The notes under the pieces: generated by a model | Seen by the model: the letters and a program-made list of their open reading frames with translations, nothing else | Databases searched by the model: none | Told to the model about the DNA's origin: nothing | Shown here: positions 2,157 to 43,800 of the stretch, in pieces | How positions within the stretch are numbered: the stretch's first letter is position 1 | Layout of the letters: every line of letters begins with the position of its first letter | Position numbers and translations under genes: made by a program | Assembly (NCBI GenBank): GCA_023144895.1 | Contig: JAGLEV010000001.1 | Coordinates: 1-58,320, forward strand | Reading direction: 5' to 3' | DNA length: 58,320 nt | Source: Thiotrichaceae bacterium | GTDB taxonomy: Bacteria > Pseudomonadota > Gammaproteobacteria > Thiotrichales > Thiotrichaceae

Positions 2157-3662
2157 ATGACTATTTATATGAATATTAAAACGGCTATTTCAACCCTTTC
2201 ATTAATTATTATCATGGGATATGTTCCCGCTATTGCAAATAATGATGCTAATAAAAAAACTTTTCATGGGCATAAATTCCCTAAGGGCTGTGCTAAAGAT
2301 CCCAATCATAGCCATTTGAATGGTCATAAGTATCATAAACACCGTATTAACTGTGGTCATCCTCATGCGCAAGATACACCTCATCCCCAGCAAGATTCTC
2401 AACCACAAGTTGAGATTCAGATTGCTGCCAAGCCAGTGACTACCAATGAAAAATCAATGGCTGCACCTGTATGGAGTACGAGCAATGTGACTCAAGGGTA
2501 TCCACAAAAAGAGAGTGTAACGAACCCTTCAAGGACACCAGTACAACAAGCGGTACCCATCCCAGAGATTAATCACCAACCCGTAAGACCTCAACTTGTT
2601 TCAAGACCGATAGCGCCTTCATCATCGTCACACCAACATCCAGCAATACCCAATTGCACTAATGCGATTCAACATGATCACAAGTATCAACAACGAGAGC
2701 ATAAGCATCGTTATGCTTGTCAGAAACCAACACAAGTACGTGCTGAGACTCCAGTGATAGAAATACCCGCAGCAGTACAAGCGACAGCTCAACAGCCACA
2801 AAACCAGCAAATCACAAGAAGACAACAAGAGCTGAGACAGCAACAACAAGCACAAGCCGCCGCAGTGAAAGCTCAACAGCTACAAAATCAGCAAATTGCA
2901 AGAAGACTACAACTGCTGAAACAGCAACAACAGGCAGGGCAAGCAAAGGCGGCACAAATTAGAGCCCAACAAGTACAAAGTCAACAGCTAGCACGAAGAC
3001 AGCAGGTGCTGAAACAGCAACAACAAGCAGGGCAAGCAAAGGCGGCACAAGTTAGGGCTCAACAAGTACAAAGTCAACAGCTAGCAAGAAGACAGCAGAT
3101 ACTGAAACAGCAACAACAAGCACGACAAGCACAAATAGCCAAGGTTAAGGCTCAACAAATAAAAAACCAACAAATGCTAAGAAGACAACAAGTGCTTAGA
3201 CAGCAACAACAGGCACGACAAGCACAAGTAGCCAAGGTTAAAGCTCAACAGATACAACGACAGCAAGCCATACGAAAACAACAGCAACAACAGGCTGTGC
3301 AACATGCTCCAGTCGCTAGCCCTCAGCAAGCAACAAAGCCGATGAAAAAGCCAGCATCTTGGGCGCACCAACATCCAGCCATACCCAACTGTACTCGCGC
3401 TGTTCAACATACTCATCAGTATCAACAAGCCGCACACAAGCATCGCTACGCTTGTCAGGCACAACCCAGAAGAATGAATGCTCAGGCACGAGTACAAGCT
3501 CGTAGAGCGGTGAGACATCAACCTAGGATGTCTAATGGGCGTGTTAATACAGCCGTTATTAGGGAGGAAATTAGAGCAACAGGTGTTTATAGAGGTCCTC
3601 TTGATGATATTGTCACACCAGAGTCACGACGTTCTTTAGAATCTTATAAAAAGAAACGCTAA
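2157..3662 (+). CDS. Secreted protein with His/Cys modules, Gln-rich 31-aa repeats and a peptidoglycan-binding-like tail
   Basis: A 501-residue protein not recognised as a whole. In order: a signal peptide ending near residue 27 (PAIA); a His/Cys module at 36-70; a Pro/Ser linker; a second module at 159-189 (HQHPAIPNCT...HKHRYAC); five Gln/Arg/Lys-rich repeats of 31 residues at about 211-380, probably a coiled coil; a third module at 404-434 almost identical to the second; and a tail at 463-501 (IREEIRATGVYRGPLDD) resembling half of a PG_binding_1 domain. It probably sits in the periplasm against peptidoglycan. The His and Cys spacing suggests metal binding, which is inference. The same module recurs in the protein at 4808. 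No clear ribosome binding site; ATG 2169 gives a more standard signal peptide and is an alternative start. Confidence 0.7.
   Translation: MTIYMNIKTAISTLSLIIIMGYVPAIANNDANKKTFHGHKFPKGCAKDPNHSHLNGHKYHKHRINCGHPHAQDTPHPQQDSQPQVEIQIAAKPVTTNEKSMAAPVWSTSNVTQGYPQKESVTNPSRTPVQQAVPIPEINHQPVRPQLVSRPIAPSSSSHQHPAIPNCTNAIQHDHKYQQREHKHRYACQKPTQVRAETPVIEIPAAVQATAQQPQNQQITRRQQELRQQQQAQAAAVKAQQLQNQQIARRLQLLKQQQQAGQAKAAQIRAQQVQSQQLARRQQVLKQQQQAGQAKAAQVRAQQVQSQQLARRQQILKQQQQARQAQIAKVKAQQIKNQQMLRRQQVLRQQQQARQAQVAKVKAQQIQRQQAIRKQQQQQAVQHAPVASPQQATKPMKKPASWAHQHPAIPNCTRAVQHTHQYQQAAHKHRYACQAQPRRMNAQARVQARRAVRHQPRMSNGRVNTAVIREEIRATGVYRGPLDDIVTPESRRSLESYKKKR
2785..3290 (+). repeat. Tandem 93-bp repeats inside the Gln-rich protein gene
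   Basis: About five in-frame units with a 93-bp period; for example GGGCAAGCAAAGGCGGCACA recurs at 2937 and 3030. Each unit encodes 31 residues around QNQQ-ARRQQ-LKQQQQA-QA. The two central copies are nearly identical at DNA level, which indicates recent duplication; the outer copies have diverged. Confidence 0.9.
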
Positions 3663-34392: not shown

Positions 34393-35161
<769 letters not shown>

Positions 35162-35178
<17 letters not shown>

Positions 35179-36226
35179 CAACCACCTCCAGTTTACGTTC
35201 TTGATGGAAGTGACTTAGTGGCATATTGAGTAATTCAGCCGCTTTAGATTCAGTGCTCCAGCCTTCAGCTAGGGCGCGATAGACCATCTGCTTAAATAAA
35301 AAACTTTTTTCTGCTGGAATCGGTTCACCAGGTTCATGCTGATGCCAGCCTTTTTTCTTAAATTGTCGGAAATGAGATTTTAGTATAGTGAGACTCATTA
35401 AGCCCGTATCGTGCAATCGAAATAAACAGGCAGACATACTTAGCCCAAATTCTTGTTTTAATAAATATAATTCACGAAGCTCTACATTGCGTATCGTCTC
35501 ACCAAAATGCTGGTATAAAGCACTTTGTGGTAATAAGAAAGCTGAGGCAAAGCGATTACATGCCTTTTCTTCATCAATTTTCTCATCAAGACGGTCATGT
35601 AATAATAAATGCCCAAGCTCATGCGCAAGGGTGAAGCGCTGACGATCTCCTGTCCAGTTTGATGAGACAACAATGATTGCTTGTTTATTATGGTAAGCCA
35701 TTAAGCCATCAAACTTTTCTTCATTTTCTATATCCGTAAATAATACCCATATTCCTAAGGTTTCCAAGGTGTCAACAAAATCTGCCATTGGGTTATTTCC
35801 TAGCTCCCATTGCTTGCGTAATTGCTCGGCAATTTTTTCTATCTCATCAAGTTTAGTAATATATTTTGGTAAGCTAGTAGGTAGGGTGAAGCTTTTAATG
35901 GGAAAGATGGGATATAAGTTAACAAGCTCCTGCCAGCGTTCAACTTGCTCAAGAACTTCTGCTTCAATTTTGCGTAATAGCTTCTTTGTTGCACCAGGGC
36001 GCTTACGAAACTCAACACCCGATAAGGTGATATTAATAGGGCGGAAGAAATACTCAGTTCGCACACCATAAGCTTTAGCCAGTTTAATCAGCTGAGTAGA
36101 GTTAGGGACATTTTTACTATCTTCATATTTTTTAATGGCACTATGCGATACATCCACACGGTCAGCGGCACCTCGCAAGGATAGATTGGCGGCTTTGCGT
36201 GCTCGTTTTAATCGTGTAGCTAACAT
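35162..36226 (-). CDS. XRE-family regulator with ImmA/IrrE metallopeptidase domain
   Basis: A 354-residue two-domain protein. Residues 1-60 are a Cro/C1-type helix-turn-helix (LRGAADRVDVSHSAIKKYEDSKNVP). Residues about 150-260 are an ImmA/IrrE zinc peptidase (FTLAHELGHLLLHDRLDEK, then EKACNRFASAFLLP). The C-terminal 70 residues contain another helix-turn-helix-like stretch (WSTESKAAELLNMPLSHF). By analogy with ImmA-type systems it should repress its own operon and could cleave a regulator, controlling the downstream PIN protein. A palindromic operator lies right before the gene. Confidence 0.88.
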
Positions 36227-37942: not shown

Positions 37943-37957
37943 AATCAATAATATCAA
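37943..37957. repeat. Left copy of 15-bp direct repeat (attL candidate)
   Basis: AATCAATAATATCAA lies 10 bp after the acyltransferase stop and 27 bp from the integrase stop. It is identical to 40379-40393. Confidence 0.45.
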
Positions 37958-37984
37958 AGCTCGAGCCCGTCAATAAACTGAAAA

Positions 37985-38980
37985 CTAATCCCATAAATCT
38001 TCACCTGCATGATGCTCAAACATTTTAGCCTTGCGCATATAGTGCTGTACAGTGCGAATATCTTGCTTAGTAATATCAGCAATTTGTAATACATCTTTAC
38101 CTTGAATGGCAGCAGAGGTAACAAAGCCACTTCTTAAGCTATGACCAGAGTATTCGCTAGCATCTAAACCAATAGTCGCACAATAGTGTTTAATCCTACT
38201 ACTATAGGTCACAGCAGAGAGGGCTTTATTTTCGTTAAGGTTAATCTGTTGACCTCGGCGTATACGACGAAATACTGGACCTGATTCAATTCCACTCGCT
38301 TCCAGCCAATCTTTTATTGCTTTAACCGCACAATAAGGCGAGTCAGGATGCCCAAAAATAGGCTTGTCTAATCCTTTTCCTGCCTGATCTGTTTTGGAGC
38401 GTTTCAAATAAACCCGTAAGTGCTCTTCTATGAAATGTAGCTGATCTCGATCTAAGCTAACGACTTCACTGCGTCGAAAACCTCCAGAAAAACCAAGTAA
38501 TAACATTGCCTTATCTCTCTTTCCTGTGAGACTGGAATCATCAATAGAGTCAATGATCTTCTTTAGATCATCAATATACATCGCTTTTTTCTGATTAACT
38601 TGACTTCCTAGCTGGCGCGTGACGGCTCTCATCATCTTTTTACATATAACAGCCTCGGTAGGGGAGTCTAAGCCTGCATTGTGGTGATAATAGCGTATTG
38701 CGGCAAAACGACGACGTATTGTATTTATTTTTAACTTTCTATCCACTAAGAATTGCAGATAAAGCACGGTCGTTTGGTCAAGGGCAGGGAGGTGATTTTG
38801 TTCAATTTCTTTAGTAAATAGTTGAAAATCCTTCCAATCTTTCTCGTAGGCCAAGTGTGTAAGAGGAGCCATATCAGCAACGAGAGTCGATTTTGTTCTT
38901 TCTATTAAAGAATCAATCTCTTGCTGGGTAGCAGGGGGTTGGTTGGGCTGTTTTATAGGTAAATTATTGTTTTTATCCAT
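37985..38980 (-). CDS. Tyrosine-type site-specific recombinase
   Basis: A 331-residue phage-integrase-family protein with an N-terminal SAM-like core-binding domain (about 20-125) and a catalytic domain. Visible catalytic residues are Arg in LGFSGGFRRSEVVSL, Lys in KRSKTDQAG, the His-x-x-Arg pair in GHSLRSGF, and Tyr in TVQHYMRK. The usual second His (GH motif) reads TKQD, with Lys in its place. A Gln/Pro-rich N-terminal tail is unusual. The gene diverges from the KfrA-like gene across an inverted repeat and ends beside a 15-bp repeat that may be its attachment site. Confidence 0.92.
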   Translation of the reverse strand: MDKNNNLPIKQPNQPPATQQEIDSLIERTKSTLVADMAPLTHLAYEKDWKDFQLFTKEIEQNHLPALDQTTVLYLQFLVDRKLKINTIRRRFAAIRYYHHNAGLDSPTEAVICKKMMRAVTRQLGSQVNQKKAMYIDDLKKIIDSIDDSSLTGKRDKAMLLLGFSGGFRRSEVVSLDRDQLHFIEEHLRVYLKRSKTDQAGKGLDKPIFGHPDSPYCAVKAIKDWLEASGIESGPVFRRIRRGQQINLNENKALSAVTYSSRIKHYCATIGLDASEYSGHSLRSGFVTSAAIQGKDVLQIADITKQDIRTVQHYMRKAKMFEHHAGEDLWD

Positions 38981-39042
38981 AGCGTAGTTTCATTTAAGCC
39001 TAAATGTATCAAAAAATAGAGTATAGCATAGACCACCCTGCT

Positions 39043-39119
39043 TTACTTTCGAGAATGAAAGTTATCGAAAGTAACTAATATTATTTGTAACTGTAGTTAT
39101 GTACTATGTTACAATGTAC
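39043..39119. promoter_or_regulatory. Palindrome-rich divergent regulatory region of integrase and KfrA-like genes
   Basis: TTACTTTCGA (39043-39052) and TCGAAAGTAA (39065-39074) are perfect 10-bp arms with a 12-bp spacer. TAACTGTAGTTA (39088-39099) is a second short palindrome, and ATGTAC recurs at 39099 and 39114. These probably bind the KfrA-like protein or the recombinase and control both genes. Confidence 0.55.
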
Positions 39120-39146
39120 GTCATATCAAATAACTATGGTTACACA

Positions 39147-40217
39147 ATGATTGACAAAATAGACATTACTGAGACTATTGCTAAAGAATTAAGCATTTTG
39201 ATCAATAATAATGAGATAAAGACACCAGAAAAGGCTAAACAGGTAGCAGGGGAGCTATTAAGAAGGGGAGTCCAGCCAACATGGAGAATAATTAGGGAAA
39301 TCCTTGGAACAGGGAGCGCTTCAACGCTACAGAATGCTGTTAATCTTTATTGGAGTGAATTAGGTGCTCATCTGGATAATTTAGAAAAAAGACCTGAACT
39401 ACCTAAGAATTTGGTTAAAGACTTTAATAACCTATGGGATAAGGCGTTGCAAATAAGCGAAAAAAAGCTAGAAAAACGTCTATCGGATGCCTTTGAGAAG
39501 GCAAAAGAAATAGAAATTACAGTCAATAAAGAAAAAGAGGCGCTGTCTGCACAGCTATTAGAGGCTAATAATTGTAATATAGCGAATGAGAATCAATTAC
39601 AATCACTACAAAAAGACCATCATCGCCAAGCCGAACAATTAGCCACGACAAAAAAAGAGCACACATTACTTGAATCAAAGCTTAAAGAAAATAAGCAAGA
39701 CTTTGCTCAGCAGATTAAGGATGAGCGAAATACTCATAATGAGCGCTATACGACACTACAAGAATCTTATTATGAAATAGAAAAACAAAAATCACAGGCG
39801 CAACAAACACTAGCTAATGAGAAATCTCAACAGTCAATGGTAGAAAAACAAAATAAGCAAAGCCTGAGTGACTTAAAACAAGATCGACAATTAGAGCTAG
39901 ATCGCCAAGCAAAACAATATGATTCAATGATCTCACATTATGCCAGTGAGATTAGCCACTTTAAAACCAAGCTAGATAAAGCTGACGCGCTCTATAGTCT
40001 GGAAAATAAAAAATGGCAGTCTCATAATGAAAAAAGCATTCTAACACTTGCCGATGTCCAAGCTCAGCTAATGCTAATGACACAAAACAATACACGACTA
40101 GAAAAAGAAAAAACGACGCAAGCACAGCTTCTAGATAAACAGCTCGATGACTTGCAAAAGATTAATAAGCACTCTGTGAAGCTGGAGACCCGCCTTGAAA
40201 TGCTGAAAAAGAAATAA
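39147..40217 (+). CDS. KfrA-like DNA-binding protein with long coiled coil
   Basis: A protein of about 356 residues. The N-terminal 95 residues resemble the KfrA_N helix-turn-helix region (AGELLRRGVQPTWRIIREILGTGSASTLQNAVNLYWSEL), and the rest is a highly charged, Gln-rich coiled coil to the end. Plasmid KfrA is an autoregulator that may link plasmids into clusters. Here it is chromosomal and divergent from a recombinase. The longest frame starts at 39099, but that extension overlaps palindromic promoter-like DNA; ATG 39147 (MIDKIDITET) is preferred, although its ribosome binding site is weak. Confidence 0.75.
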   Translation: MIDKIDITETIAKELSILINNNEIKTPEKAKQVAGELLRRGVQPTWRIIREILGTGSASTLQNAVNLYWSELGAHLDNLEKRPELPKNLVKDFNNLWDKALQISEKKLEKRLSDAFEKAKEIEITVNKEKEALSAQLLEANNCNIANENQLQSLQKDHHRQAEQLATTKKEHTLLESKLKENKQDFAQQIKDERNTHNERYTTLQESYYEIEKQKSQAQQTLANEKSQQSMVEKQNKQSLSDLKQDRQLELDRQAKQYDSMISHYASEISHFKTKLDKADALYSLENKKWQSHNEKSILTLADVQAQLMLMTQNNTRLEKEKTTQAQLLDKQLDDLQKINKHSVKLETRLEMLKKK

Positions 40218-40231
40218 GCGCTTATAAATTT

Positions 40232-40258
40232 GCAGTAGGCGACATAGTAACCTACTGC
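40232..40258 (+). terminator. Terminator after the KfrA-like gene
   Basis: GCAGTAGG (40232-40239) and CCTACTGC (40251-40258) form a perfect 8-bp stem with an 11-nt loop, 14 bp after the stop codon, followed by TTTATAAT. Confidence 0.6.
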
Positions 40259-40376
40259 TTTATAATGACTTATTTTTACCATTTAACATAATATAGATTA
40301 TGCGCACTTATTATTATGGTTAATTTTCATGATAATTTCCAATCTTGGATAAGATTTCAGAAATTCTAGGACAATA

Positions 40377-40643
40377 TCAATCAATAATATCAATCAATAA
40401 TGATGTTGCTGCGCCACCCACTGCGCCACCAATCATACTTCCAATAGGACCACCCACAGCACCACCAACGATACTACCTGCTGCTGTCCCTGCAACTTTT
40501 CCTGCCACACCAACAACCTTGCCAGCGACTTGAAATGGTACTTTTGCCACACCAACGGCACCACCGACAACTTGCTGTGAACTACACGCCGAAATATTTG
40601 AAGACATTATGATAACGGCCAATACATAGGATAGTTTTTTCAT
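40377..40643 (-). CDS. Glycine-zipper lipoprotein
   Basis: An 88-residue protein with a lipoprotein signal (MKKLSYVLAVIIMSS then lipobox ISAC, Cys20). It continues in an alternating Gly/Ala/Val stretch (VGGAVGGPIGSMIGGAVGG) typical of glycine-zipper outer-membrane lipoproteins. The plus-strand proline-rich frame across it is an antisense shadow. Its last codons lie in the right copy of the 15-bp repeat bounding the integrase cassette. Function unknown; such proteins often affect envelope stability. Confidence 0.75.
   Translation of the reverse strand: MKKLSYVLAVIIMSSNISACSSQQVVGGAVGVAKVPFQVAGKVVGVAGKVAGTAAGSIVGGAVGGPIGSMIGGAVGGAATSLLIDIID
40379..40393. repeat. Right copy of 15-bp direct repeat (attR candidate)
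   Basis: AATCAATAATATCAA overlaps the last codons and stop of the lipoprotein gene and matches 37943-37957 exactly. The neighbourhood contains further ATCAAT units, so part of the match may reflect low complexity. Confidence 0.4.
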
Positions 40644-40843: not shown

Positions 40844-43800
40844 TTATACTTGCGACACCAGCTCTTTCTTATTAAGCCACAAGGTATCAAGCAACTCGCA
40901 TTCTCTTATAAAATCTTTATTAATTAATGCTTCCAGCTCCTTTTCTGAATACTCTGGGTAAAGAACGGTATAAGCTAGATCATACTTAGCCTCTGCCTTT
41001 ATTGCATCTTCAGCCGCTTTAACTGCTTTACCTTTAGATTTTGCTGATACCGAGTCACTATTTTTTTTCTCCTGATAAGCCAAAGCGGGCTTTATATACA
41101 AGGCACTAGGTTGTTTTCTACTAGAAAGATAATGGTTTAGATAATGGTCTAATTCTTTTTGATAATCACAAGCTTTCTCTTGACCAAACTGCCACTGCTG
41201 GTTTTTTCCGAATAAATACGTTTGTTTTATACTTCCACTAGAATCTATATTAACAATACAGTGACGTATCCATGCATTAATATAATCACTGGTCTTTAAA
41301 TTAGCATGGCGGTAAATCAATAATGCATTCTCATAAACGCCATGGATATAACCATGAACAGCTAATGATTTTAGTTTACAATCAACGACTTTAGGCTCTA
41401 TTTTTTCACCAAGATTCAACGATTTAATCTTGCTAACAAAGGTATTAATCTTCTTCGCTTGCTCATTAAAAAGCAACTGACCCGCAGCGCCATTAGTCCA
41501 GCGACCTTCTGCTTTGAGCCGTCGATAAAAATCGGGATCACCACCCTCCCCGCTTAATGCCTGCTCCAGCCAATCCTGATCTATTTGGTATTGATCCAAT
41601 CCATTAACGGTAAAATCTTCCGTATTGCTTTTTTCTATTGGTGTCGCTGGAATCACTATACCTAATTGATTTTTCAAAAAATCACGCTGCGGATGACGGT
41701 AAAAACTTAACAAATCATCAAGATTTATTGATTCAATCGATGGACTATCAACCAAGCCTTCCCACCAAGTATGTTCATCAGTCTTGCTATAATCAGCCAA
41801 AACTTTCGCCATTTTTAAATTATCAGCACTGTAACTAAATAACTTAGAACTTAATGAAAAATAATCAGAATGATAATGATGCAAGGGATGAACCGTTACT
41901 AATTCACTTTCTTCTAAGTCATATTGGTCATGTAAAGTATCGAGTAATTCAGTCATAATAATCGAAGGTGCTATCTTAATATTATCACGCTGGGACTGAC
42001 CAATATAGGAAACAATCAATTGATGCTCGGCAGACAATATGATTTCTAGTACTTGATAGCGTTCATCATTACGATAAGACTTATCTCCTACTCTAAATTC
42101 CTGAGCCATTAAATCAAAAGCAGCAGGTCTATCGGCATGAGGAAATTCAGACTCATTCATACCCATTAAAATAATGACTTTAAAAGGAATAGCTCGCATC
42201 GGCAACATAGAACAGAAAGTGAGTTGCCCACGCATAAATCCTGTAGCAGATTGATGATTATTCGCCGTATCTTCAAGCCAATTTTGGATGACTTCAAGTG
42301 TAACCTTATGCGTATAATGCTCAGAAAATTCATTTAACTGTGCAATAATTTCAGTGAGTTGAGTATGACCCTCTTGAAAGTCATCAATACTAGAGATTAA
42401 TTCATAGCTTAGCTTGAGTAATACCCCAGCCCAGTTTTCTAGATTATCGTTATTGCTCAGTTGCTTTTTAGTTTTACTGAGTAACTGGAAGAAATCGATT
42501 AAGCGTCCAAGCACCTGACCTTGCTGACCTTCAATTGTATTAAAGGGTAAAATATTAATACAAAATTCACTATCATCGGATTGCATAAATCCCATTAACA
42601 TACGGTCAAGTGATGCTAACCATGTATTTTCTGTAAAAGGTTCAAAACCTAAAGACTGGCGATGTTCACCTGATTCTCCCCAGCGAGTACGTGTTTCTTC
42701 TAACCAGTGACGTAATAACTCTAAATCACTGGCTAATAAGCCAAAGCGGGTATAAATAGCACGATTTTCTAGGAAGTCGAGTAGAGGGTCTAACTCCCAG
42801 CGCCCTTGACAAAGGTGTAAAAAATCAAGAAAAAGCCGAATGGGTTGATCACCACCCTGCACTATTGATCGATCTGCAACACTATGAGGTACATCATTAA
42901 AAACAGCGCCAATAAAGGCACTATAAGGCTGAATATCAGGTGCCATAATAATAATGTCACGAGGCGTTAATTCAGGGTTTTCAGCAAAACAAGCCAACAC
43001 CTGATCCTTAATCACCTCAACCTCACGCAAACGACTATGGCAACAGTGCAATTGCAAACTAGTATCCGCTTTGAGTGTTATGCGACTATCGCTATTATGC
43101 AGGATGTCATTTTTAAGTTGTGCTAATAATGTTCCAGAATCATCTTCAGTAAAACTATCAATCTCTAATTCAAAATCACCTGTTTCAATCATCAGTTGCT
43201 GAAAATCTCGTCCCTGCTGTCCTAATCCTGATAATATAGGATTACTCACATGATGAAGCTCCTCATCAGAATAAAGTAATTTAGCCTTTAATGTGGGTAC
43301 ATCTGCCCAATAGCTTTGTGCTGGATTGAGTAAGTAAAAATGAACTTCAATATGCTGGGCAATCGCCTTTAAAAATCGCATATACAAAGGTGACATCGCA
43401 TTGATGCCAAAGACACATAAGCGCTCTGGCAAGAACATTCGCGCTTGATCACTGGGCATTTCATGTAATTTATCCAGCGCGGTTTGCCATAATAGACCCG
43501 TGCAAGCACTATGATCACTCGCAGGATAATGCTGTTCTAACTGATTCCATAAGTAAGATTGCCAGATTTCTGCAGGATTGGAGCTATTTATTTCATTTTT
43601 CTGCCATGATTCAAACCATTCAGGACGCATAAATTGGTATTGATCAAATAGTCTTGCTAAAGTTTTGGCTAGTTGGTAACGCTTTAATTCGACGCTACCT
43701 GAGTCATTAATATATTGATATACAACACGACTTTGCTCTACTGGTAACCCACGTAAAAGACTCTCTAGCTGCCATAATAATGATTCTTTATCAACCAAAG

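Follow-up and report, generated by a model that had tools for sequence, protein, structure and literature searches.

The window, by which we mean the whole 58,320-nucleotide stretch of Thiotrichaceae DNA analysed here, holds a gene for a tyrosine recombinase and a divergent gene for a coiled-coil protein with a KfrA_N domain, both situated between the two copies of a 15-bp repeat (Table 1). All of these elements had been named in the original prediction and were recovered: the two proteins matched the Pfam profiles Phage_integrase and KfrA_N, AATCAATAATATCAA was present exactly at both ends, and its right copy occupied, as had been stated, the 3′ end of a lipoprotein gene, namely the last codons of an ORF at 40377–40643 on the reverse strand. 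Two further features within the same interval had been overlooked, a 28-bp palindromic core between the genes and a canonical XerCD dif site beyond the end of kfrA.

Table 1 Features of the recombinase–kfrA locus (coordinates are positions in the window)
Feature	Position	Strand	Basis or remark
Left copy of 15-bp repeat	37943..37957	+	Probably not an att site
Tyrosine recombinase (TnpS/Cre-like), 331 aa	37985..38980	-	Pfam Phage_integrase 1.7e-13; alignment; profile match to Cre structures
KOPS-like GGGCAGGG, pointing to dif	38782..38789	+	Only GGGNAGGG on + strand of window
Probable recombination core, dif-like 11-6-11: ACTTTCGAGAA / spacer TGAAAG / TTATCGAAAGT	39045..39072	+	Conserved in five pairs
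Conserved repeats TTGTAAC...TGTTACAATGTAC; proposed kfrA promoter region and operator/accessory site for the KfrA-like protein	39086..39119	+	Intergenic alignment
KfrA_N/TnpT-like putative DNA-binding protein with coiled-coil tail, 356 aa	39147..40217	+	Pfam KfrA_N 1.7e-14; alignment
Terminator-like hairpin GCAGTAGG/CCTACTGC, between kfrA and dif	40232..40258	+	Sequence
Canonical XerCD dif site TGCGCATAATCTATATTATGTTAAAT	40281..40306	-	Pattern search, up to 3 mismatches; sole match in genome
Right copy of 15-bp repeat	40379..40393	+	Inside 13-bp tandem repeat, lipoprotein 3′ end; probably not an att site
KOPS-like GGGNAGGG, pointing to dif	41544..41551	-	Only one on - strand of window

The proposed search for recombinase–KfrA pairs elsewhere was run and found divergent pairs in four further Thiotrichaceae genomes: a Leucothrix mucor MAG (G023, locus L092), two Cocleimonas MAGs (G066, L093, and G017, L094, where the contig end cuts the pair) and G003 (L095). 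The pair loci differ throughout, with rimP flanking the pair in G023 and glyA in G003, for example. This recurrence at different loci supports the recombinase and the KfrA-like gene as a unit of their own, and this part of the original prediction stood; the other part, an integrative cassette bounded by att repeats, did not, and what is a real and conserved module was thus misread as an att-flanked cassette. In another genome, G010, the recombinase gene lies directly behind sucD and kfrA lies with the core on another contig (L174:1987-3176, L081:9059-10084).

A close recombinase was present in 6 of 63 genomes of the order, which is a patchy distribution, and a scan of 84,980 species genomes returned only five loci, all in Thiotrichaceae, with two short peptide patterns strict enough for more distant pair members to escape. 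Recombinase identities conflicted with those of PurA: 59% versus 84% between the window genome and G003, which belong to the same genus, 80% versus 78% between the window genome and G023, and 60% versus 89% between G017 and G023. Such a conflict agrees with horizontal transfer or with old paralogues that were lost differentially.

Residues R170, K196, H280, R283 and Y314 of the recombinase, which we take from motif knowledge to be catalytic, were invariant in an alignment with five relatives. The comparison of G023 with G066 revealed purifying selection on the gene (dN 0.085, dS 0.95); this, like the persistence of all parts of the module in G010 after their separation, speaks for a function. 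The recombinase is 26% identical to TnpS of Tn4651 and falls outside the TnpS clade (18 rows, support 100/99), which excludes the Thiotrichaceae clade in a tree that separates the two and leaves the deeper branching order unsettled. A protein search of IMG/VR returned no relatives of the pair, phage matches being weak only, and the pair had no defence match in PADLOC. Elsewhere in the window, at 34645–36226 on the reverse strand, a gene for an HTH and IrrE-like peptidase protein (PADLOC RmrA, 9e-52) overlaps a gene for a PIN-like protein (weak PDC-S70 match), and the two look like a toxin-antitoxin or defence pair.

The start of kfrA was placed by comparison with relatives, the first ATG of the frame being at 39099. 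The KfrA-like proteins of the relatives are 36–47% identical to the window protein, and because these proteins diverge so fast their binding sites can only be guessed. No tblastn match to the window protein was found among 72,556 plasmids, no solved structure was found by sequence, and BLASTP detected no similarity to TnpT of Tn4651. The Pfam KfrA_N profile, however, recognised this transposon helper at 2.6e-26 (L142:964-1962; tnpS and tnpT of pWW0 were identified by position, size and domain content in a record that leaves the genes unnamed), a protein described in 2020 as being without apparent homology to other proteins (PMC7157771). On plasmids, KfrA proteins control their own genes and assemble into filaments on specific DNA (PMC7821693). 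The element had been described as having no cargo apart from a filament-type DNA binder; in the KfrA-like gene we would rather see the second component of a system of the TnpS/TnpT type.

The core, ACTTTCGAGAA-N6-TTATCGAAAGT, was found at the same intergenic position in five of five pairs, with one arm base differing in G066 and with TGAAAG, TGTACG, TGTATG or TGGACG as the spacer. Each of the six recombinase-bearing genomes contained exactly one core when up to 3 mismatches were allowed, and the reversed pattern, used as a control, produced zero matches in the same six genomes. In the alignment of the five elements the core is followed by the repeat block around TTGTAAC...TGTACAATGTAC, which was also compared in G010. 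We infer that recombination would take place at the core and that the KfrA-like protein may bind the repeat block.

More distant recombinases (~33–38% identical), on chromosomes as well as plasmids, have near-identical arms upstream of their genes. Those of Thiothrix-like genomes (~33–35% identical) have ACTTCCGAGAA-N6-TTATCGGAAGT close upstream and no KfrA_N neighbour, and the cores that accompany a Methylobacterium plasmid recombinase (pVL1_6) and a recombinase on an IMG/VR contig agree with that of the window at all 22 arm bases. From the cores of these relatives, a recombinase travelling with its own two-arm site is a recurrent pattern in the group. The alphaproteobacterial plasmid-type recombinases L197 (pVL1_6) and L173:5886-8233, one by a divergent parA, have cores with the 22 window arm bases, and these are probably plasmid multimer-resolution sites. 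Matches of a shorter core pattern on two viral contigs (L233 and L234) were discarded; they fall within coding genes, have no recombinase near them and appear coincidental.

The module sits at the replication terminus of the window genome, next to dif, the site at which the chromosomes come apart after replication. The cumulative GC skew has its maximum at 39590, with a height reached in none of 2000 block shuffles, GC skew is +0.10 to the left of dif and -0.085 to its right, and the sole two GGGNAGGG motifs of the window converge on dif. XerC and XerD are also encoded in the genome and score above the NCBIfam cut-offs. The dif site lies 64 bp past the kfrA stop and 1.2 kb from the core, a proximity that is a post hoc observation, as the search had asked whether a canonical system exists and proximity was unsought. 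In two other genomes dif likewise lies past the kfrA stop, at 39 bp (G023) and 2.7 kb (G066), its side and relative orientation matching those in the window. In G017, dif is on a different contig from the module and its assembled flanks are without kfrA or the pair; in G010 it is on a third contig, apart from both the recombinase and kfrA with the core; and in G003 the pattern search found no dif. Thiothrix-like genomes hold a solo recombinase with its core at the aspS locus, with dif ~6 kb off in four of them and 15 kb off in one, and a second recombinase paralogue in G081 and G082 lies ~0.5 Mb from dif. The termini of Thiothrix-like genomes, in addition, show two overlapping inverted dif-like sequences ~25 bp apart (L083:13913-13965; L183:14879-14931; L185:14329-14381).

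Taken together, the pair and its core probably constitute a stand-alone site-specific resolution module, which may be a second self-contained dif/Xer-like system. The most likely mechanism would be Cre/TnpS-like strand exchange between two cores, in which the TnpS/Cre-like recombinase, one protein on both arms, would bind the 28-bp core and recombine two copies of it, while the KfrA_N/TnpT-like protein would bind the repeats by the core, repress the divergent promoters and help to build the synapse, favouring resolution. A genome with one core would supply the substrate when replication or multimerisation yields two copies of it, in the form of sister chromosomes, a chromosome dimer or a plasmid that carries the module. 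A narrower version, in which a single recombinase and a KfrA-type accessory filament protein act on their own dif-like site ~1 kb from dif, at the replication terminus of bacteria retaining XerC, XerD and dif, and help to separate sister chromosomes as a second dif/Xer-like system, is put forward tentatively and as the doubtful part of the proposal. Patchy presence, the non-universal proximity to dif, the position of the recombinase outside the TnpS clade and the fast divergence of the KfrA-like protein all count against the resolution module.

The 15-bp repeats were the basis of the earlier reading, a two-gene integrative cassette with the repeats as attL and attR, which we now consider highly improbable. 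In its favour, the relatives hold the pair at different loci, and an exact repeat of this length at both ends exceeds all of 3000 Markov resamplings of the two short flanks with dinucleotide frequencies kept; because the longest word common to the resampled flanks was 13 nt, the 15-nt repeat is more than simple chance. No third exact copy of AATCAATAATATCAA occurs in the window. (Other repeated 15-mers, CAGCAACAACAAGCA and similar, cluster at 2837–3295, mostly 93 bp apart, and are probably a repetitive protein segment.) The right copy, however, is half of a 13-bp tandem repeat, (ATATCAATCAATA)x2, and is for that reason of low sequence complexity. None of the three other complete pairs (L092, L093 and L095) has a direct repeat of 9 bp or longer shared between the 400-bp stretches at its two ends, and a search widened to 600 bp gave none that convinces. 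In G005, which has no pair, a 48%-identical lipoprotein gene adjoins recC, its opposite flank not being syntenic with the window, and the 15-mer is absent from its 3′ end. The probable core, moreover, is intact between the two genes, which speaks against a circle integrated here with attL and attR as its boundaries. With the repeats absent from the other copies and the core internal, the att model was rejected, and the 15-bp repeats are probably not attachment sites of the element.

It is conceivable, though rather unlikely, that the locus is a relic or passenger: a transposon or plasmid, since lost, would have left behind its cointegrate- or plasmid-resolution module, which would now have no role on the chromosome. 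Such an origin would agree with the TnpS/TnpT architecture, with related same-core recombinases being common on plasmids, some of them by parA, with the recombinase tree conflicting with PurA, and with the patchy presence; yet no complete copy has a damaged ORF, core or operator block, the recombinase is under purifying selection, the parts were retained in G010 after separation, and neither a trace of TnpA nor terminal repeats could be seen. We give less credence still to an IMEX-like event in which XerCD inserted the pair by dif, exploiting dif as the attachment site. Mobile elements are known to integrate at dif (PMC9765430), and the short distances from the kfrA end to dif in the window and G023, with side and orientation alike, would be explained. 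IMEX elements, however, leave two dif-type sites, whereas the window genome has one at up to 3 mismatches, and the recombinase end carries no convincing dif or half-dif (best half-arm 8–9 of 11). Two genes separate dif from kfrA in G066, and the assembled dif flanks of G017 lack the pair.

A stand-alone resolution module, the reading that we prefer, would link the TnpT transposon helper, plasmid KfrA proteins and single-recombinase dif modules, which are usually described apart, and would offer a recombination module free of a transposon with a core that is directly testable. That a single chromosome terminus has two distinct two-arm recombination sites, ~1 kb from each other, also makes it possible to ask if recombination there may be duplicated, replaced or parasitised.

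With regard to known systems, the window protein shares a KfrA_N head and a long alpha-helical tail with plasmid KfrA (RK2/R751, RA3), but is chromosomal and paired with a recombinase and core. Plasmid recombinases by parA (Methylobacterium pVL1_6 and others) are ~35–38% identical to that of the window and likewise have the core upstream of the gene; unlike it, they are plasmid-borne and have no KfrA_N neighbour.

In the TnpS/TnpT/rst cointegrate-resolution system of Tn4651-subgroup Tn3 transposons, as in the module, the genes for a tyrosine recombinase and a KfrA_N helper diverge, and the space between them holds a two-arm core and, next to it, a repeat block. The resolution site, rst, lies between tnpS and tnpT, where TnpS acts on the inverted repeat of the core and TnpT on an accessory inverted repeat (PMC7157771; PMC4619425). 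The window module differs in being without TnpA or terminal inverted repeats, in its terminus position, and in the distant sequences of its helper and recombinase. No Tn3 transposase (PF01526) was found in eight Thiotrichaceae genomes (the window genome and seven others), compared to six of six tested genomes with TnpS-clade pairs that carried one on the same contig, and the pair ends showed no shared Tn3-type terminal inverted repeats. Because of the missing Tn3 transposase and the separation of the clades in the tree, the module was not classed as a TnpS/TnpT member.

Single-recombinase dif/Xer systems (XerS/difSL, XerH/difH and XerL/dif) resemble the module in having one recombinase, a two-arm site of 28–30 bp and a terminus position, the likeness of the recombinase sequences to XerS, XerH and XerL being known from weak profile matches only. 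The genes for XerS and XerH usually form a module with their linked sites (PMC2731167; PMC9765430); the same linkage, with one two-arm site per genome, is seen here, but it is broken in G010. In contrast to these systems, the window module is not the sole dif/Xer system of its genome, where it coexists with XerC, XerD and a canonical dif site, and it has a KfrA_N partner.
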